From IMG/VR virus record IMGVR_UViG_3300032029_000010, positions 1 to 20,161 of that record: a stretch of DNA of 20,161 nucleotides; one strand, written 5' to 3'. Numbering within the stretch: the stretch's first letter is position 1; every line of letters begins with the position of its first letter. This document shows, piece by piece, positions 5,055 through 20,161 of this stretch. The notes under the pieces were generated by a model. It was given only the letters and a program-made list of their open reading frames with translations, was not told the DNA's origin and did not search any database. This DNA is from a virus. A program made the translations under genes and the position numbers.

Positions 5055-7664
5055 TTAGCACTCCCAGTATTGGAGTTCGACGAAAGTACCCGCACATTCG
5101 TCACAGATTTCCTTAAGACAGTGGTTATAACAAGGGCTCGGGCACCATCCGTAACAGTAGCGGATCTGTCCTTCACAACAGTTATAATCCCACGCCCCGC
5201 AAGAGCCGCATCCATCATGGATAAGTTCACAGGGAGCCGAGCAGAGCCAATCGTCAGATGCCACCCAGTGGCCATCGGTGCATCTCACGTATCCGGTAAC
5301 ATCGAACCCGCAGGCATCGGTCACCGTTATCGTTGCAGGGCCGCAGGCGGTGTCGTCGGAGTTCAGCAGATTGACCCCGTCTTCGGTTTCAGACGCTCCC
5401 AGGGAAAAACCGGTTCCCTCAACACTCCATTTATACGGAGCTCCCCCGCCGGTGACGGATATGGGAATCGAGTCGTCCGGATCGATCGTCTCTTCATTGT
5501 CCTCCGCCCATTTCATCGGCTGCCCGCACTTATCGCATTGTTCCACGCATTCCGCGATCGCCTCGTCTTTCAGCTCCGCGTATTTCTCCCAGTATGCCGG
5601 GCTGCCCTCCGCCAGGCCGTAATCCTCGGTCACGATCTCGGATATATCCCGCCCGCTAGCCCCGTCATAGCTCTGTATCGTATCGTATATGTAGAGCTCC
5701 GCATCGCACACGTCTTCGCAGGCGCAGTCATGCTCCAGGGCCGTTGCAAACCTCGCGGCCAGGGCCTCCTCGCTCGGATCAGCGGACACGTTATCCGGCA
5801 CGCACCAGTTCAAGTCGGATGTCGGCTCTCCCATTTCCGTCGGGTCATAGCCCTCGTCCTCTTCCTCGTCGGAATCCCCGCCCAATCCGCCGTAACCCCC
5901 GTCCCCGTCTCCGGCTGCCCATTCACTCGGATACTCGTCCGTGATCTCGGTATTATCCACAATCCTCACGCTTGCGCTTGTCTCTGCCCCCTCTTCCCTG
6001 TTCGTGATCATCCAGGCGTTTATGGTCGCCGTGCCCAGTACCGCGCCGGTAAAATGGTTTAGGGCAGCGCCTTGGGCGGTGTAATTGACCAGCAGGTCCG
6101 TTGCAGTGGCCACGATACCGTTCAGGTCGATCACCTTGCCGTTATGAGAGGAATATAAATTTCCTCCTGTTGGGTTGCCGTCCTCGTCCGCCTTGTGCAC
6201 GCCCGACACGCTCGCCGGAAACATCGATATCTCGCACTGGCTGACTCCCGCTATCTCATTAATCGCCGCGGCCTGCTCGTTGGCCACACCCACCGTGCCC
6301 AGCCTGGCGTAGGTCCACGACAATGTCCCGCGTTTCGTGGCGCTCACCTCGGCCATGAACACCATCCTGCCCGTGGTAATCGGCCCGGCCTCCTCCCCGT
6401 ATACAAGCAGGCTCGCCGAGCCTCCAAGGTAGATGGACGTGGGCGCCGCGGTCAGACGAATCATGGGCGGGCACTCGCACGGATTGTCAATATATACAGT
6501 GCCTGAGTCCGCCTGGCCTTTAACGCTTGCGGTTACGGTCACGTCCTCGGCCTCATCGCCGGCCTGGAGATAATTAACCCCGATCCCGCCGGCCCTGTAG
6601 TCGATAAGCACCGATTGATCGCAATAGGCGAGCTTATCGGTCAGGGTGATGCTATTGCCGTTTATCTCGTAGCCAGCCGCCGCGAAATTATTCCGCCGGG
6701 CCGTATCCGAATAAGCATATATCCCGTCGACAGAGCTCGGCGGAAAATCTACCGCCACGCTGTAAAAATTAGTCGCCCTCTGCGACTCGCTGCGGATAAT
6801 GATCTCCTGGGTATTCGACGTTTCGTGGTCCAGAGCCGCGCTGTCGCTGTCTGCCTCCCAGTTGACCGCAAGGCCATCGACGGGCTCTCCGTCCGGATCT
6901 CTCACCTGGGCATATATTTTTGCTCGTGAGGTGCCGTCCGCCTTGAGGCACGGATCGGGGATAAAGAGCGTGACGGAATAATTCCCGAGGTCTCCGGTGG
7001 GAGTGATCCTGACCCGGTTGGCAAACACGGGCCATTCCGGGCTCTCGGTGATCGTCCCGATATCATCGTCCGTGATCGTCACATCCGCCGAGGATGGAGA
7101 ATAATCGATTTGTTTTATGCAGAGGTGCCCGAGACGATCGGTCGTGACCAGGGCGCCTGCCAGGCCCGCAAGCTCGCTGATTACGTCGATCGGATAGAGC
7201 CCGTCGGCCTCGTAGGTGTAGGGAAAGATAATAAAATCGTCTATGTCGCTGTAGGCCGGGTTCCACTCAAACCCCGCGAAGTCGCACAGCTCCTCGCAGA
7301 TATTGAAAAAGGTGGTTTTCTGCTCCCATGCCTTTGTTATCTTCGGGGCAAAGGGCTCCGCTAATCTGGCGGTCAACGACCTCCCCCACACGCCCTGCAG
7401 CAGATCCGATTGAATGCTCACGGCCAGGGCCGGCCGCTCGATGAAAAACGTGCCCTGGCTGATCCAGTCCTCCCCGGTCCTGGTGAATATCTCGATCTCG
7501 GGGGTTTCGGAAATCTGCGAGAAATCCAGGTCCGCGTAGAGATCGGGATCGGATATATCCAGGGTCATCTCCCTGCAGAAACTATCCAGCGAACAGGCAA
7601 TCGAGAACCTCGACACCTTGCCGGAGATGTCCGCGCTGTTCAGTGTTATTTTCCAGGCATACAT
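5055..7664 (-). CDS. Large tail-tip/hub protein with Ig-like region and Cys-rich C-terminus
   Basis: The start is placed at MYAWKITLN (869 residues). A further 15 upstream in-frame codons are just the palindromic repeat read through. The N-terminal 220 residues resemble a tail hub domain (DISDPDLYADLDF, then SQGTFFIERP, then an F-N-I-C-E-E-L region). Residues of about 240-420 contain a bacterial Ig-like segment (IYAQVRDPDGEPVDGLAVNW). A Gly/Asp/Glu linker lies near 620. The last 75 residues hold 14 cysteines, with many more between 650 and 790. The gene sits between the distal-tail candidate and other tail-tip genes, so it probably forms or caps the tail tip. Hub identity is inferred; the cysteine count is direct. 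Confidence 0.78.
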   Translation of the reverse strand: MYAWKITLNSADISGKVSRFSIACSLDSFCREMTLDISDPDLYADLDFSQISETPEIEIFTRTGEDWISQGTFFIERPALAVSIQSDLLQGVWGRSLTARLAEPFAPKITKAWEQKTTFFNICEELCDFAGFEWNPAYSDIDDFIIFPYTYEADGLYPIDVISELAGLAGALVTTDRLGHLCIKQIDYSPSSADVTITDDDIGTITESPEWPVFANRVRITPTGDLGNYSVTLFIPDPCLKADGTSRAKIYAQVRDPDGEPVDGLAVNWEADSDSAALDHETSNTQEIIIRSESQRATNFYSVAVDFPPSSVDGIYAYSDTARRNNFAAAGYEINGNSITLTDKLAYCDQSVLIDYRAGGIGVNYLQAGDEAEDVTVTASVKGQADSGTVYIDNPCECPPMIRLTAAPTSIYLGGSASLLVYGEEAGPITTGRMVFMAEVSATKRGTLSWTYARLGTVGVANEQAAAINEIAGVSQCEISMFPASVSGVHKADEDGNPTGGNLYSSHNGKVIDLNGIVATATDLLVNYTAQGAALNHFTGAVLGTATINAWMITNREEGAETSASVRIVDNTEITDEYPSEWAAGDGDGGYGGLGGDSDEEEDEGYDPTEMGEPTSDLNWCVPDNVSADPSEEALAARFATALEHDCACEDVCDAELYIYDTIQSYDGASGRDISEIVTEDYGLAEGSPAYWEKYAELKDEAIAECVEQCDKCGQPMKWAEDNEETIDPDDSIPISVTGGGAPYKWSVEGTGFSLGASETEDGVNLLNSDDTACGPATITVTDACGFDVTGYVRCTDGHWVASDDWLCSAPCELIHDGCGSCGAWDYNCCEGQIRYCYGWCPSPCYNHCLKEICDECAGTFVELQYWEC

Positions 7665-7678
7665 TGGTATCTTTTTTC

Positions 7679-7745
7679 GCCACCAAGACACGAAGTCACT
7701 AAGTAACAATAATTAAAAACCTTGGTGCCTTTGTGCCTTCGTGGC
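7679..7745. repeat. Palindromic tandem-word repeat, family A copy 1
   Basis: The left arm reads as 8-nt words (CACCAAGA, CACGAAGT, CACTAAGT) and the right arm as their complements (CTTGGTGC, CTTTGTGC, CTTCGTGG) around an AT-rich loop. It fills the gap between the distal-tail candidate and the hub gene. Confidence 0.85.
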
Positions 7746-11552: not shown

Positions 11553-11637
11553 GCCACTAAGGCACAAAGGCACGAAGTTTAATTTTCAATTTTCACTTGT
11601 CAATTTTCAATTGTTTGTGTCTTAGTGACTTCGTGGC
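11553..11637. repeat. Composite palindromic repeat, family A copy 2 with a second repeat inside
   Basis: The outer arms are family A 8-nt words (CACTAAGG, CACAAAGG, CACGAAG and complements). The loop holds a different array of 7-nt words (AATTTTC, AATTTTC, ACTTGTC, AATTTTC). It lies between the chaperone second frame and the tape measure gene. Confidence 0.85.
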
Positions 11638-11638
11638 A

Positions 11639-11740
11639 TCATGGTTTATCTTGCGGAGGCTTGAGCCACCGGACGGCCTCCTCGATCGCGAGATTAAAAA
11701 AACTCCAGCCGTAGTCCCACGCCTGCGCGTGTCCCATCAT
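11639..11740 (-). CDS. Tail assembly chaperone, second frame (T-like)
   Basis: Read alone from ATG this frame encodes 33 residues (GHAQAWDYGWSFFNLAIEEA in the middle). It stays open upstream, across the end of the chaperone gene, in the -1 frame, exactly as the T extension of phage lambda G/GT does. The first ATG has no good ribosome site, so expression as a -1 fusion is favoured, with A-AAC-CCT at 11836-11830 as the candidate slip site. Its stop lies next to the repeat in front of the tape measure gene. T domains normally bind tube protein or tape measure. This is inferred by architecture and short-motif resemblance. Confidence 0.6.
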   Translation of the reverse strand: MMGHAQAWDYGWSFFNLAIEEAVRWLKPPQDKP

Positions 11741-11742
11741 GA

Positions 11743-12081
11743 TCAGCCGGCAGATTGCTCTTCTGATTTCTGCGCTGCCAGCGCCGCTCGCCCCACGTTT
11801 GCCAGCCTTTGCATCAGGCCGGCGAAAGTAGGGTTTATGCCTTCTACCTCGTCGATCATGGTCTCTATCTCGGACGGGGCATATTTGGCCAGTTCCTCGA
11901 CCGGCATCTCGAGGCTCATCGCGAGAGCGCTTGACGGAAGCCGGTCCGGGAACAGCATGTCGATATCGCTGATTTCCGTGTCCGTCCCCGCGGATTCGAG
12001 TATCTGCGCAATCTGTTTGACCGTGAGCTCACGGGCGGTAAATTTCTTATCGCCGATTTTAAACGGCTTTTCTTTTCTCAT
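11743..12081 (-). CDS. Tail assembly chaperone (G-like)
   Basis: The 112-residue acidic, helical protein sits between tail tube and tape measure, the fixed place of the G-type tail chaperone. It begins MRKEKPFKIGDKKF and has ARELTVKQIAQILES, similar to other phage chaperones that start with a short beta pair followed by helices. The start at 12081 is chosen for its AAAGGAGATCCCAACC ribosome site; an upstream in-frame GTG lies inside the family B palindrome and is rejected. Near the 3' end the -1 frame is open, allowing a G-T fusion. It would keep the tape measure soluble and recruit tube subunits. Confidence 0.8.
   Translation of the reverse strand: MRKEKPFKIGDKKFTARELTVKQIAQILESAGTDTEISDIDMLFPDRLPSSALAMSLEMPVEELAKYAPSEIETMIDEVEGINPTFAGLMQRLANVGRAALAAQKSEEQSAG
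11830..11836 (-). promoter_or_regulatory. Candidate -1 ribosomal frameshift heptamer
   Basis: In the chaperone frame the codons ATA AAC CCT contain A-AAC-CCT, which fits the X-XXY-YYZ pattern for tandem -1 slippage. After a slip, the ribosome reads TAC TTT CGC and continues without a stop into the T-like frame. It is not one of the best-known strong heptamers, so this is a candidate only. Confidence 0.45.
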
Positions 12082-12098: not shown

Positions 12099-12170
12099 GC
12101 CACGGATTCACACAGATAAACGCGGATTAAGAAAAATTAATATCTGCGTAAATCTGCGTAAATCCGTGGC
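12099..12170. repeat. Palindromic tandem-word repeat, family B
   Basis: Arms are 10-nt words: CACGGATTCA, CACAGATAAA, CGCGGATTAA on the left and TATCTGCGTA, AATCTGCGTA, AATCCGTGGC on the right. It lies between the tail tube and chaperone genes, and its left edge reaches the chaperone ribosome-site region. Confidence 0.85.
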
Positions 12171-12197
12171 CAAATATTATTGGCCCCGGAAGCGGGA

Positions 12198-13172
12198 TTA
12201 CATCGTCTCGACTTTGTAATACTCCTGGCCGCTGGCCTGATCGCTGTCCTTGAGCACTGTGCCCGTGACCGCGAGCACTGAGGCGCCTTCCCCGATCAAC
12301 GGGAACTCGCCGTTGAGCAAGATATTGACCTTGTGGAACGTCCATCTCTGGCGCACGCCGTTGTCGTCTTTATCGGAAACGAAGATCAGCTTGCGCTCCA
12401 CCGATCCCGCGGACATCCCCCAGATATAGCTGCGGTCCACGGCCTCGTAATCGTAAGAGATCACGTCCGTGTCGATGATGTCCCCGTCGCTGATCTTGCG
12501 GATATACCCGTAATCCGGGTCCAGGCTGTAATCCGTTCCCTGCACGCGGCGCGTCGTTCCGGCCGCATCGGTGACCACCACGTCCTCGAGGGTCTCGATA
12601 CCCGTGGGCGTGATGTAATTGGTGCCCTGGGTCTCATACACCTCCTCGCCCACCTGGAACGTTCCCACGATATTGACCAGCTCGATGTATCCGGCCGCCT
12701 TAAAGGCTATGTCGCCCGTGGCTGCCGAGGTGTCTCCCGTCACTGTGTCGCCCACCGCAAGCGCTCCGGTAATCGTGCCGGTCAGCTTGATGCTGAACAC
12801 GTTCAGCTTGCCCAGATCTATATACAGATCGTCTTCCAGGTCCACGTCCGTGCCGATCGCGTCCTGATACACATAGCTCGCGGCCTGGTTGTCGGTGTTA
12901 ATGTCCGAGCCGAGCAGGGTCATCTTCAGGTTCTCGTTCGTCATCTCCCGGAGCCCGAAGGTAAGCACCGCGTCCCGCTCCGTCTCCTTTTCGATGATGG
13001 TTGCCCTGGCCGCGTTCCGCGTGCTCTTGAGCTTTTCGATCGTGACCGTGAGGGCGAAATTGATATTCTCCAGCTCGCCCAGGTCATCGAACGAATCCTC
13101 GTCCACCTCGCCGGCGTATGCCCTGCCGGTGCCGTAATAGCGAATATTGTCCGCGCTTGATGCTAATGGCAT
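12198..13172 (-). CDS. Major tail tube protein (siphovirus type)
   Basis: The 324-residue protein should polymerise into the non-contractile tail tube. The N-terminal part (DDLGELENINFALTVTIEKL, residues about 28-48) and a following beta pattern resemble siphophage tube proteins, and it stands where tube genes stand, before the chaperone pair. Residues of about 130-190 form a Gly/Thr-rich beta insert (TGTITGALAVGDTVTG) that could be an extra surface domain. No sheath gene lies upstream. An AAAGGAGG ribosome site precedes the ATG. Tube identity rests on position plus N-terminal resemblance. Confidence 0.8.
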   Translation of the reverse strand: MPLASSADNIRYYGTGRAYAGEVDEDSFDDLGELENINFALTVTIEKLKSTRNAARATIIEKETERDAVLTFGLREMTNENLKMTLLGSDINTDNQAASYVYQDAIGTDVDLEDDLYIDLGKLNVFSIKLTGTITGALAVGDTVTGDTSAATGDIAFKAAGYIELVNIVGTFQVGEEVYETQGTNYITPTGIETLEDVVVTDAAGTTRRVQGTDYSLDPDYGYIRKISDGDIIDTDVISYDYEAVDRSYIWGMSAGSVERKLIFVSDKDDNGVRQRWTFHKVNILLNGEFPLIGEGASVLAVTGTVLKDSDQASGQEYYKVETM

Positions 13173-13190: not shown

Positions 13191-13247
13191 GCCACTAAGT
13201 CACAAAGTCACAAAAGATAAAACTTAGTGTCTTAGTGTCTTTGTGGC
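13191..13247. repeat. Palindromic tandem-word repeat, family A copy 3
   Basis: Left arm words are CACTAAGT, CACAAAGT, CACAAAAG; right arm words are CTTAGTGT, CTTAGTGT, CTTTGTGG. It fills the gap between the gp37-like and tail tube genes. Confidence 0.85.
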
Positions 13248-13250
13248 CTC

Positions 13251-13703
13251 CTATGTTTTAATTGTCTTGAACTCATACCGCGCCGCGTAAAAACACAGCC
13301 CCCTTTTAGGCGCCAGGTATAGCGGCGCAGCGGAGCGCAGGAGCATGACGCCTGAGCTGTGGATCTTTTGCCTGTGCAGCAGTCCCTCGGTCAGCTCCAG
13401 GATCTCATAGACTCCCATGCTCGTGGAGTCCCCACGCCTGGAGGCCTCCGTGCCCCGCAGGTTTTTATCCCCGACAAGGAGCATGATCCCGATATCCTCT
13501 TCGTCGTAGCGGTCCTTGTGCGTGAGCGCCAGGCCCGTGGCCACCACGTAAACACAGGGAAAAAGCAGCGTCATCCTGGCCAGCTCCTCAATGTCCTCCG
13601 CCTCGGCCTGGCCCGCATAAAGCTCCAGGGTCTTGACGCCTTGATCTTTCAGCGGCTCCAGAGTAACGAGAGTAACCTGCTCCAGCTCCTCGAACTCGTG
13701 CAT
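13251..13703 (-). CDS. Mu gp37-like protein (DUF1834)
   Basis: The 150-residue protein matches the Mu gp37 family in size and position (after gp36, before the tail genes). It has a KTLELYAGQAEAEDIEELAR segment, hydrophobic LFPCVYVVATG, and a later GVYEILELTEGLL helix. Members probably act at the head-tail junction or as tail terminators. The ATG overlaps the stop of the small basic gene as TAATG, so translation is coupled. The stop lies just before a family A palindrome. Confidence 0.8.
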   Translation of the reverse strand: MHEFEELEQVTLVTLEPLKDQGVKTLELYAGQAEAEDIEELARMTLLFPCVYVVATGLALTHKDRYDEEDIGIMLLVGDKNLRGTEASRRGDSTSMGVYEILELTEGLLHRQKIHSSGVMLLRSAAPLYLAPKRGLCFYAARYEFKTIKT

Positions 13704-16950: not shown

Positions 16951-17607
16951 TCACTGCACCGTATTTTTAGGCCCGTATTTTTTCCAGCTGTCCTCAGACA
17001 CGCCCACCATCTTGTTGATGGACAGTTGCACCTGGTCAAGGATGGCGTCATCCGCCTTGATCTCTTTTTTGGCCAGCTTGTCCACCGGGACCTCGCTTCC
17101 GACCGCCTTCGAAAGCACGACTTTTTTGAATTGCTCCGGGTCGTTGAGCGCCATGTCGTTGCCCCATTTTTCCAGCTGATCTTTTGTGATCTTGCCTTCC
17201 AGCACTGCCTGTCCTACGAGGTCCTCCTTTTTTATCGCGGCAATATCGGCGCTCAATTTAGCGACTTGTCCGCTCAAATCATCCGTGGCGGCGTGGCTTG
17301 CTTTAAGGCCCCTAATGGTTGTGATTACGTCCTCCCGGGCAGCGTCTTCTTTGAGCCCGAGGGCCTCGATCACCTCCTTGGCCACCACCTCTATTTTCTT
17401 GCCCTCGACCTGCTTTTTCAGGTTCTTGTTTTCGGCCACGACCGCTTTCGCGGCCTCAGCCACCTTATCCTGGCCGGCGTCATCAGCCAGCTCGAAAAGC
17501 TCTATCATGTCTTTGTTCTTGGCCACGACCGCCTCGGCGGCCTCGACTACCTTGTCCTCGCCGGCGTCGTCGGCCAGCCCTAAAAGTTTTTTAAGTTTGT
17601 CTAACAT
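16951..17607 (-). CDS. Nested scaffold protein (Mu Z analogue), internal start
   Basis: Met 248 of the protease (ATG at 17607) is preceded by AAAGGAGG and a 5-nt spacer, as strong a ribosome site as any here. Translation from it gives the 218-residue C-terminal scaffold alone. Mu makes its scaffold Z from the 3' part of gene I, and lambda makes Nu3 from C, in the same way. The product is rich in Lys, Glu and Ala and begins MLDKLKKLLGLADDAGEDK. Two near-identical 29-residue repeats lie at its N-terminus. Expression from this site is inferred. Confidence 0.75.
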   Translation of the reverse strand: MLDKLKKLLGLADDAGEDKVVEAAEAVVAKNKDMIELFELADDAGQDKVAEAAKAVVAENKNLKKQVEGKKIEVVAKEVIEALGLKEDAAREDVITTIRGLKASHAATDDLSGQVAKLSADIAAIKKEDLVGQAVLEGKITKDQLEKWGNDMALNDPEQFKKVVLSKAVGSEVPVDKLAKKEIKADDAILDQVQLSINKMVGVSEDSWKKYGPKNTVQ

Positions 17608-18348
17608 GTTTGCCTCCTTTCGGAATTCTCCGATGTTGAATTTTTTACGGAATTTATCTAATCGCCCGTTGATGATCGAGCGTTCCTCGGGGTTGTATTG
17701 CGCCTGGTTATCCTCCTGGCCCCAGTAACCGGCAGCCGCCCGCGTCTGGGCCGCGTCGGGACACGGGTAGCGGTAATTGACCGGGTCCAGCCACTCATCG
17801 TCGGGCACGTGCTCCCACTCGGAAGGCTTGGTTACATGCCCTCCCTCCTTGATGCCGATCCTGTATTTTCTCGAGCGGGCCTCCCTGGCCTCCCGCGCCT
17901 CCTCGAGGCTCATCTTGGCCATGATCGGCCGCAGGTTATTCAGCTTCGGGAAATTGGTCAGGGCCACGTTTTCGATCTTGATAATCTTCCGGCCGTTTTC
18001 AGAGACCCAGAATACCGGCGAAAAATAACGGTATTCTCGGTTCTCCAGGTATTCCTTTGCCTGCCTGGTCCATTCCACAACCACCCAGAACCCTTCCTTG
18101 CCGCGATTGATGAATCTCTTGATCCATCCTGCAGCCGGGGCCTTGACGCCCTGGAGGGTCTGGTGCTCGTAATCGATGACCATGTCGTTTCCCCGGCGCT
18201 CGAAATCGGCGATAATGGCGTCCATCGATTCGTCGTCCACAAATGCATCGTCCTCGCCCTCGATCCCGATCTTCCCGTACGGAAAAAGCTGGAATTCTTC
18301 CGGGGCGCCCTCGATGCTCTTGAGTACATATAAAAGTTTCAATCCCAT
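16951..18348 (-). CDS. Mu I-like prohead protease with C-terminal scaffold
   Basis: The N-terminal part (about 1-145) is a Mu I-type prohead protease, with IDYEHQ at 58-63 (likely catalytic His 62), PAAGWI near 72 and a FSPVFWVSENG segment. A middle segment (about 150-240; GIKEGGHVTKPSEWEHVPDD, then WLDPVNYRYPCPDA) resembles DUF6582-type inserts. The C-terminal 218 residues are charged and coiled-coil-like, as in a scaffold. The start is set at MGLKL behind GGAGGAAGCGAT; it overlaps the stop of the upstream gene. The protease should clear the scaffold after prohead assembly, and the capsid gene lies downstream. Confidence 0.9.
   Translation of the reverse strand: MGLKLLYVLKSIEGAPEEFQLFPYGKIGIEGEDDAFVDDESMDAIIADFERRGNDMVIDYEHQTLQGVKAPAAGWIKRFINRGKEGFWVVVEWTRQAKEYLENREYRYFSPVFWVSENGRKIIKIENVALTNFPKLNNLRPIMAKMSLEEAREAREARSRKYRIGIKEGGHVTKPSEWEHVPDDEWLDPVNYRYPCPDAAQTRAAAGYWGQEDNQAQYNPEERSIINGRLDKFRKKFNIGEFRKEANMLDKLKKLLGLADDAGEDKVVEAAEAVVAKNKDMIELFELADDAGQDKVAEAAKAVVAENKNLKKQVEGKKIEVVAKEVIEALGLKEDAAREDVITTIRGLKASHAATDDLSGQVAKLSADIAAIKKEDLVGQAVLEGKITKDQLEKWGNDMALNDPEQFKKVVLSKAVGSEVPVDKLAKKEIKADDAILDQVQLSINKMVGVSEDSWKKYGPKNTVQ
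17413..17586 (-). repeat. Two tandem 87-bp coding repeats in the scaffold
   Basis: Units 17586-17500 and 17499-17413 encode LADDAGEDKVVEAAEAVVAK and LADDAGQDKVAEAAKAVVAE in register. A third, weaker unit follows (LGLKEDAAREDVITTIRGL). This points to growth of the scaffold by in-frame duplication. Confidence 0.75.
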
Positions 18349-19013
18349 ATCGCTTCCTCCATGCGATCGCGCAGCCGTGAATCGTATTTTCCAGGATCCG
18401 GCTTCCATTCCTGCACTGCCGGGTTATACCGGAACCCCGGGTCCGGCTGCAGATCCGGGACCTGCGTTTCCTCTTTCAGCCCTTCCTCCTCCATCTCCCG
18501 GGCGGAAATAGAATGTACGACACATCTGCACCTAAAACCTGCAGGCGGAAACCACGTATTCCAGAAGGGATGATCGTGGCGGTATATCTTGCCGTCGTTC
18601 GCCAGGTGGGTCGGCCTGGTGTGCGTGTCGTTCACCGCGTCGTATTCCCAGTACGGCCTGCGGTCCGCGACCGCCTTCATCTGTTTGTGCCTGCCCACGT
18701 TATAAGCGGTCTGGTTATTGGTCCTGAAGATATTGTCCAGCCGGTAGGGCGTCATGCCTTGCCAGCCCCGCCGGGCCATGATCTCATCGATCCCCTCGCG
18801 GAACTCAAAGAACGTCCCTCCTTTCTCGAGGGCCTTCAGGACCTCCCCGTGCAGGTCTTGCAGCAGGTCGGCAGAGGCAATGCGAGACACCGTAAACGCC
18901 AGGCTGTTTGCATACGCACCCACCTCCGCCACCAGAACCTCGTATTCCGCGGCGGTCATCGGGATCTTATCCCGAAAAAATTCCACCGCCTCGCTAAACG
19001 CCATTCCTTTCAT
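18339..19013 (-). CDS. Mu F/gp30-like minor head protein (SPP1 gp7 family)
   Basis: The protein is a minor virion component placed near the portal and possibly ejected with DNA. The C-terminal half has the family signature: YDAVNDTHTRPTHLANDGKI, then PFWNTWFPPAGFRCRC, a pattern of His, Asp and Cys residues seen in Phage_Mu_F proteins. The start is placed at ATG 19013 (MKGMAF, 224 residues), with AGGAGA upstream; a longer frame from a GTG at 19034 begins inside the family A palindrome. It is short compared with Mu F. The stop overlaps the start of the protease gene. Confidence 0.9.
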   Translation of the reverse strand: MKGMAFSEAVEFFRDKIPMTAAEYEVLVAEVGAYANSLAFTVSRIASADLLQDLHGEVLKALEKGGTFFEFREGIDEIMARRGWQGMTPYRLDNIFRTNNQTAYNVGRHKQMKAVADRRPYWEYDAVNDTHTRPTHLANDGKIYRHDHPFWNTWFPPAGFRCRCVVHSISAREMEEEGLKEETQVPDLQPDPGFRYNPAVQEWKPDPGKYDSRLRDRMEEAIWD

Positions 19014-19029: not shown

Positions 19030-19095
19030 GCCACTAAGGCACAAAGGCACGAAGGAAAAATAATTATAAACTTTGTGTCTTGGTGTCTTTGTGGC
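19030..19095. repeat. Palindromic tandem-word repeat, family A copy 4
   Basis: Left words CACTAAGG, CACAAAGG, CACGAAGG and right words CTTTGTGT, CTTGGTGT, CTTTGTGG. It fills the gap between the G-like and F-like genes. Confidence 0.85.
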
Positions 19096-19100
19096 TATCT

Positions 19101-19646
19101 TCATGCCCACGCCCCCGCGATAAAATCTGCTACCGAACCATTGAGATATTCCCAGTCCGCATCTTCCGCGTACATGTACGGCCGCGCCGGGATCTCAACG
19201 GATTTTTTGAGGATAAAGAGCGGCACGATATCCTCGCCCCTCTTCTGAAAGATGATTCCCTTGGCCACAAAGGTGTCCGCAAAGTCCGCGGCCCGCAGCG
19301 GCACGCGCTTATCCGCAGGCCCGCCGGGAAACGGGATGGTCAGGAACTTCTTTTTTTTCGGCCTGATCGTCCCGCCGTAATGGTGTATCGCGGCATAATC
19401 CACCTCGCCGGGGCCGCCGCCGGCGGATATCTCCCCCGTATCGGCCATCTCCTCGTGGGTCAGGCTGCCCTTGAGCCTGCTCGTTCTCTCCTTGAGCGCC
19501 GGACCGGACAGCCGTTTCGATATCTTTCTGACCATGCGCTCGCCGAAATCCGCCAGGGGCTGCGTGAGATCCCGCGCCCTGTCGCCGGTTTCATCCACGG
19601 CCTTGATAACCTTCTCCTCGCCCCCAATGCGTATGGTCAGTTCCAT
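19101..19646 (-). CDS. Mu G-like virion morphogenesis protein (tail completion)
   Basis: The 181-residue protein belongs to the phage virion morphogenesis family (Phage_tail_S type), which finishes the tail-head joint. Motifs seen are DFGERMVRKISKRL near residue 33, YAAIHHYGGTIRPKKKKFL at about 84-102 and IPARPYMY near 152. Its place beside portal and F matches Mu-like genomes, although here it precedes F. A short AAGG ribosome site precedes the ATG. Palindromes flank it on both sides. Confidence 0.88.
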   Translation of the reverse strand: MELTIRIGGEEKVIKAVDETGDRARDLTQPLADFGERMVRKISKRLSGPALKERTSRLKGSLTHEEMADTGEISAGGGPGEVDYAAIHHYGGTIRPKKKKFLTIPFPGGPADKRVPLRAADFADTFVAKGIIFQKRGEDIVPLFILKKSVEIPARPYMYAEDADWEYLNGSVADFIAGAWA

Positions 19647-19664: not shown

Positions 19665-19730
19665 GCCACCAAGTCACGAAGACACTAAGAAAATACCTAC
19701 AAAGACTTTGTGTCTTGGTGTCTTTGTGGC
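19665..19730. repeat. Palindromic tandem-word repeat, family A copy 5
   Basis: Left words CACCAAGT, CACGAAGA, CACTAAGA and right words CTTTGTGT, CTTGGTGT, CTTTGTGG. The right arm overlaps the portal gene and encodes its last residues. Confidence 0.85.
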
Positions 19731-20161
19731 CTCTTATTTCTGGGTTTTGCCGCATCCGCCGCGCCTGCCAGTGCCGCGGTAACCAGGGCGTCGCGTACCA
19801 ATATTTCCAAATCCGCCGGGTCCAGATCCGCGTACACGTCAAATATCCGGTCGCGCAATTCCTCCAGGCTCGAGCTGGATTCGATCAGTTTCCGGACCGG
19901 GCCGTCTATCCCTTTCCATGCCTCGGCCGCGAGAGTCAGGGAGTCGTCCGCGAGCTCCTCCAGTTCCTGCTGCTCCGCGTCAAAAACAGGCCCAGGATCG
20001 TCTTTTGCTGTGAGGCGCGTATGATTAGACGCCTTTGCCCCTGTTTTCGCAGACTGGGCGGGGTTTGTCCGCTTCATGGCCATCTGGCCGGGCGTCACGG
20101 GCTGCAAAATCGTCTGTTCTTTCTCCGGCAGGGGGATCCCGAACCGCTCGCTCACGTGCTC
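19697..20161 (-). CDS. Mu gp29-like portal protein (DUF935), C-terminal part
   Basis: Only the last 154 codons and the stop are in the window; the frame runs off the edge, and the GTG at 20155 is an internal Val, preceded by E-H. The text SERFGIPLPEKEQ followed by a helical end (SSLEELRDRIFDVYADLD, then LEILVRDALVTAALAGAADA) is typical of DUF935 portal proteins, which form the DNA gate of the head. The last ten residues (PQRHQDTKSL) are encoded by a family A repeat and look unlike the family's usual end. Confidence 0.88.
   Translation of the reverse strand, partial: EHVSERFGIPLPEKEQTILQPVTPGQMAMKRTNPAQSAKTGAKASNHTRLTAKDDPGPVFDAEQQELEELADDSLTLAAEAWKGIDGPVRKLIESSSSLEELRDRIFDVYADLDPADLEILVRDALVTAALAGAADAAKPRNKRPQRHQDTKSL

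Follow-up and report, generated by a model that had tools for sequence, protein, structure and literature searches.

The window (the whole 20,161-nt stretch of viral DNA analysed here, positions 1 to 20,161 of IMG/VR record IMGVR_UViG_3300032029_000010) carries a Mu-like head module and a siphovirus-like tail module on the minus strand. Pfam and PHROGs matches of the neighbouring genes give the order major tail protein, G, T, and tape measure (Table 1). G runs from an ATG at 12081 to a stop at 11745-11743, and the T frame, which overlaps G in a shifted register and continues beyond the G stop, ends at a stop at 11641-11639, all on the minus strand. An earlier note, made from the sequence by itself, had placed the chaperone and the T-like frame in a -1 relation, and our analysis agrees: its coordinates are correct, T is -1 relative to G, and the +1 frame of G is closed. 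The -1 frame is also open well upstream, as that note had it, from position 12028, with the nearest upstream -1 stop at 12031-12029, 195 nt ahead of the X_XXY_YYZ heptamer that the note had located inside the overlap; this heptamer, AAACCCT at 11836-11830, is the only in-phase one in G. The length given for the T-like end (33 codons from its own ATG) was right, but the extension past the slip site comprises 63 residues rather than about 67. Pfam and PHROGs gave no family for the T part.

Table 1 Features of the G/T locus and its neighbours in the window.
Feature	Positions	Strand	Basis
Upstream neighbour, major tail protein with Ig-like domain	12198..13172	-	phrog_807 E=1.5e-29
G, tail assembly chaperone, 112 aa, zero frame	11743..12081	-	ORF; phrog_7608 E=1.1e-11
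Slippery heptamer A_AAC_CCT, codons N83-P84 of G (Asn83-Pro84)	11830..11836	-	sequence
Downstream hairpin	11801..11823	-	8-bp stem, 11823-11816 with 11808-11801, 7-nt loop
T, -1 frame extension after slip, 63 aa, core CRLIMMGHAQAWDYGWSFF	11639..11830	-	reading frame, relatives, codon-position pattern
Predicted GT fusion, 147 aa (84 from G, 63 from T)	11639..12081	-	inferred from heptamer position
Downstream neighbour, tape measure protein, 997 aa	8546..11539	-	PF10145 E=3.8e-30; many PHROGs tape-measure families

Several other features of the window were observed in passing. A palindromic interspersed element of ~65-90 nt, with arms like GCCACTAAGGCACAAAGGCACGAAG, is present in five copies at or near gene ends (7679-7745, 11553-11644, 13191-13254, 19030-19102, and 19665-19737), and one 18-base consensus is matched 14 times, with 0.06 matches expected. 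One of the copies lies between T and the tape measure gene, where relatives L002 and L003 have a directly overlapping ATGA. Another palindrome-like stretch (CCACGGATTTACGCAGATTTACGCAGAT...), different from the five-copy element, is found between the major tail protein and G (about 12101-12180). Downstream of the tape measure, positions 5055-7709 of the minus strand encode an 884-residue protein with a Cys-rich C-terminus and a bacterial Ig-like (Big_1) match at residues 255-301 that falls slightly below the Pfam cut-off. An 87-nt tandem duplication (17404-17577, 77% identical) lies within a protease/scaffold-like gene (16951-18408).

Structural comparison of G is suggestive of a tail assembly chaperone. 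The AlphaFold model, built from 29 sequences (pLDDT 89.5), is predicted to contain a beta hairpin followed by helices, and VIA-align of this model against the 140 chains ranked highest by Foldseek placed YqbN (3klu, Z 7.4, 78 aligned, 2.7 A) and the HK97 chaperone (2ob9, Z 5.4) as the top two of 15 chains with Z>=2, scores to be read with the caution that Z<8 can be generic. Foldseek alone gave no match to the G model at E<=0.001 in PDB and BFVD, and several BFVD names among its matches were tail assembly chaperones, none of them a confident match. The model thus suggests a resemblance to YqbN and the HK97 tail assembly chaperone.

With the chaperone and the T part as queries, searches of viral contigs yielded 40 distinct related contigs, among which we made the comparison of the heptamer that the earlier note had called for. 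AAACCCT was kept, in phase and at the equivalent place, in 20 of the 40, down to about 35% chaperone identity (L028). One of these (L001/L044) is identical to the window over 10,336 bases, and the 20 contigs reduce to 16 distinct G/T sets, window included. In L013/L067 (44% identity), a -1 stop only 6 nt ahead of AAACCCT leaves it as the sole heptamer in the remaining overlap. Thirteen contigs had T_TTT_TTN, situated about three codons past the Asn-Pro site, and five (L064, L065, L072, L076, and L077) had G and T fused in one continuous frame. The remaining two were L041, with CAACCCT (no true heptamer) and nonetheless a kept T core, and L078, truncated at the contig edge. The earlier note had named an unconserved heptamer together with a broken T frame as the result that would tell against a shift; we found the T core in the -1 frame of all 20 AAACCCT contigs, and those without AAACCCT have, for the most part, a standard U-run site (13 contigs) or G and T fused in frame (5 contigs).

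Individual contigs showed variations on these types. Both site kinds occur in tandem in L053-L055 (AAACCCTTTTTTT); in L053, at 2995, this stretch forms three overlapping in-phase heptamers and may be an intermediate between slip-site types. The five single-frame relatives are without the usual slip site, so that either only GT is made or G arises otherwise. L063 has a run of nine T at its slip site (about 2965-2973), where transcriptional slippage could act too, and the T frame of L012 (3748-4041) lacks a stop at the usual position and reaches 97 codons, apparently entering the tape measure gene. An additional upstream in-phase GGGAAAG in L047 was considered as a slip site and rejected, being absent from other relatives. 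A genome scan with the chaperone alignment found no relative, and one with the T alignment found two: L079 (a Deltaproteobacteria MAG, its heptamer region reading N) and L080 (a Desulfonema limicola MAG, with TTTTTTG). From just these two Deltaproteobacteria/Thermodesulfobacteriota MAGs, the phage hosts are probably Desulfobacterota-like bacteria.

In the long ORFs of these loci, 91 of 21,380 codons (0.43%) carry an in-phase X_XXY_YYZ heptamer, so a single one in a gene of 112 codons is unremarkable alone. The window contains four AAACCCT; neither of the other two on its minus strand is in slip phase in its own frame. Conservation makes a strong case of this weak single-genome signal. The base before AAC was A in all 16 distinct sets (codons ATA, GTA, CTA, and GCA), where codon usage in long ORFs predicts a wobble A at 3-37% per locus; this base, located before the slip, is not translated in the -1 product. 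The Asn codon was AAC and the Pro codon CCT in 16 of 16 sets, against modest genomic usage, and none of the 17 Asn-Pro pairs found elsewhere in these loci's long ORFs was written A_AAC_CCT. In ten of the U-run relatives, the base corresponding to the wobble A was A once. Because the T of CCT doubles as the opening base of the first -1 codon (Tyr, Phe, or Ser), its constancy could partly come from T. A -1 stop 6-15 nt upstream of the heptamer confines the shift to the heptamer or the stretch after it in half of the sets (8/16), and the overlap held no other conserved X_XXY_YYZ. Sought by eye in the relatives' sequences, an upstream Shine-Dalgarno-like stimulator was seen at some loci with varying spacings and was not conserved.

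A hairpin follows the heptamer. It begins six nt downstream in the window, where its stem is shorter than the 11-12 bp found in relatives. When 12 of the 16 sets were aligned (L047, L067, L028, and L038 were omitted), 93.9% of cells were paired, compared with 53.8% at most in versions shifted by 1-3 columns, and three pairs had changed on both sides (compensatory changes). RNAalifold recovered the same stem unprompted. The 40-nt local fold ranked among the most stable 4% of own-locus windows in 14 of 16 sets, the exceptions being L060 (6.7%, with a different stem) and L067 (25%, with no notable hairpin). Relative to shuffled sequences, the 89-nt downstream region was not unusually stable in 8 of 11 loci (z above -1.6); the conserved element is the local hairpin, not the whole 89-nt fold. 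RNAalifold also paired the CCC of the heptamer with a far-downstream GGG, which we discounted because the ribosome would melt this pairing.

The T frame behaves as coding sequence. Among seven close relatives, differences after the G stop were distributed 77/48/206 over T codon positions 1/2/3, a coding pattern, and differences within the overlap followed the G frame (82/51/122 at G positions 1/2/3), implying no more than loose constraint on the -1 linker between the slip and the G stop. Recognisable down to 24-35% T-part identity, the T core, C-x-L-I-x-x-G-H...W-D-Y-G-W-x-F-F, was most degenerate in L028. The codons for its conserved C-x-L-I precede the internal ATG, and an internal start for T is missing from L067 and L028; for both reasons, a fusion is most likely the only form in which T is made. 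Single-frame G-T frames in the five relatives, and in uncultured phage LR797314, support the view that the fused protein would be a natural product.

The slip site of phage lambda, G_GGA_AAG, is a Lys-tRNA motif. The layout at the window locus is otherwise like that of lambda gpG/gpGT, in which a short chaperone with a -1 extension precedes the tape measure and the slip falls near the end of G (PMC5009743); the window differs in its A_AAC_CCT site with a downstream hairpin and in a T without a Pfam or PHROGs family. In lambda, G coats the tape measure and a minority of GT brings in the tail tube protein (PMC5009743). Taking these data together, we propose that a programmed -1 ribosomal frameshift would yield the tail assembly chaperone in two lengths, of the G/GT type, and we put the probability of this reading at roughly 0.92. 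Most ribosomes would translate G to its stop, and a minority would slip back one base at A_AAC_CCU, where tRNA-Asn would re-pair from AAC to AAA, retaining two of its three pairs, and tRNA-Pro from CCU to CCC, retaining all of them or, with a GGG anticodon, improving on them. The hairpin 6 nt downstream would stall the ribosome and promote the slip, and the weak heptamer and the hairpin together would set the G:GT ratio. In the 147-aa GT fusion, the G part would be expected to bind or coat the tape measure, and the T part of the minority GT to recruit the major tail (tube) protein, by analogy with lambda.

Relatives of this chaperone in named phages were found solely via divergent family members, as tblastn of INPHARED with the window chaperone gave no match at E<=0.01. 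Through L064 we reached gp012 of Pseudomonas phage F10 (YP_001293356.1, "hypothetical protein"; 35% identity, E=1e-6), which is likewise flanked by the tape measure and a major tail protein with an Ig-like domain; a similar core, ICVLVRLGHHHVLEYPWSLF, is encoded in its -1 frame. F10 differs in its T_TTT_TTC, placed about three codons beyond the Asn-Pro site, and its T frame is unannotated in the record. By gene order, the Mu-like siphophages Casadabanvirus D3112 and PaMx73 are also alike: a head module through a portal-like gene is followed by an Ig-domain major tail protein, the chaperone, a small T frame, and the tape measure. The slip site is again in the chaperone, and D3112 agrees with the description of PaMx73 (PMC4378225). 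D3112 differs in its T_TTT_TTC site, longer chaperone, and unrelated-looking T sequence.

The earlier note had called AAACCCT an unusual slip site, and the literature makes this a fair label. Among the matches listed in the open-licence literature, we did not find AAACCCT or AAACCCU as a phage tail-gene slip site, and only a paper on an insect toti-like virus gave AAACCCU as a putative -1 site, which supports the description. There the heptamer was proposed together with a downstream structure, as at the window locus, though in a eukaryotic dsRNA virus and an unrelated gene, and as a putative site (PMC7150801). AAACCCT in a B. anthracis prophage paper was merely a primer and irrelevant. Among 64 heptamers tested in E. 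coli, those with CCN A-site codons slipped poorly, on average worse than those with AAN or UUN, all-pyrimidine codons being the better ones among the CCN class; A_AA.C_CC.A failed even with a strong pseudoknot (PMC4066793). A_AA.C_CC.U was outside the three failures reported there, and so slips at least about twofold above background with that pseudoknot (PMC4066793). The exclusive use of CCT across the 16 sets fits the better member of a weak class. According to PRFect (PMC10885494), frameshifted SEA-PHAGES genes show all four bases at each heptamer position, so that, in kind, a CCC site would not be without precedent.

Several points count against a frameshift at AAACCCT. CCN A-site motifs shift poorly in E. 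coli, where a mixed purine/pyrimidine X-Z combination is worse (PMC4066793). L041 retains the T core with a CAACCCT that is no true heptamer, the 89-nt fold is unremarkable at most loci examined, and the hairpin deviates in L060 and L067; the loosely constrained linker and the want of a conserved upstream stimulator by eye point the same way. T could instead be a separate small gene, translated from an internal ATG (11740 or 11737) by termination-reinitiation, with the heptamer incidental. The sequence TGATCATGATG, which puts an ATG right behind the G stop, and an in-frame ATG, GTG, or TTG ahead of the core in 14 of the 16 distinct AAACCCT loci speak for such a gene. Yet this start is absent in L067 and L028, inspection by eye of the 14 nt preceding the starts showed no Shine-Dalgarno-like stretch, C-x-L-I is conserved upstream of the ATG, G and T share one frame in five relatives, and the fixed wobble A and the hairpin are left unexplained; we regard a separate T gene as very unlikely.

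We give slightly less credence still to the idea that AAACCCT is kept only for the Asn-Pro dipeptide of the chaperone, with the slip elsewhere in the overlap. Asn83 is indeed shared by every one of the 29 aligned chaperones, even where AAACCCT is lacking, but the synonymous choice is fixed at three places (wobble A, AAC, and CCT, each in every set), and no other X_XXY_YYZ is conserved in the overlap. Transcriptional slippage or an assembly indel, in place of a ribosomal event, would be favoured by the long T runs of some U-run relatives (such as that of L063); the window site is merely A3 and C3, however, and the two-frame layout recurs in 20 contigs from different records, making an origin other than ribosomes the least probable of these explanations and scarcely credible.

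On a tree of 31 chaperones, the distribution of AAACCCT needs 2 changes, compared with 10.6 when shuffled; on a tree without the site's own columns and with F10 added, it needs 3 compared with 10.9, and a single AAACCCT clade is compatible with the data (AU p 0.276). From its spread across the tree and its occurrence in F10 and D3112, we infer that U_UUU_UUN is ancestral, on a tree that is unrooted as to the direction of change. We tentatively suggest, as a possibility we would rate somewhat below even odds, that the signal moved from an ancestral U_UUU_UUN to an A_AAC_CCU about three codons upstream while G and T stayed unchanged, with L053-L055 having both, and that other relatives ended the shift by G-T fusion. 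In the hosts (probably Desulfobacterota-like), the tRNAs may render Asn-Pro CCU sufficiently slippery to maintain the G:GT ratio, though the site is weak in E. coli.

A G/GT -1 ribosomal frameshift is already known and an ordinary kind of event. What is new here is a little-described chaperone family and its long-standing reliance on a class of heptamers that are poor slippers in E. coli. Rules for bacterial slip sites derive mostly from E. coli, in which CCN A-site motifs perform poorly. A CCU heptamer retained all the way from near-identical sequences to about 35% identity, with a covarying hairpin, would suggest either that these rules are host-dependent or that weak sites are chosen for making little GT. 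The recognisable T core may aid annotation of T frames missing from records such as that of F10. The natural series in this family (U-run, both sites in tandem, AAACCCT, CAACCCT, and no shift) could serve as a test of how recoding signals turn over under a preserved product.
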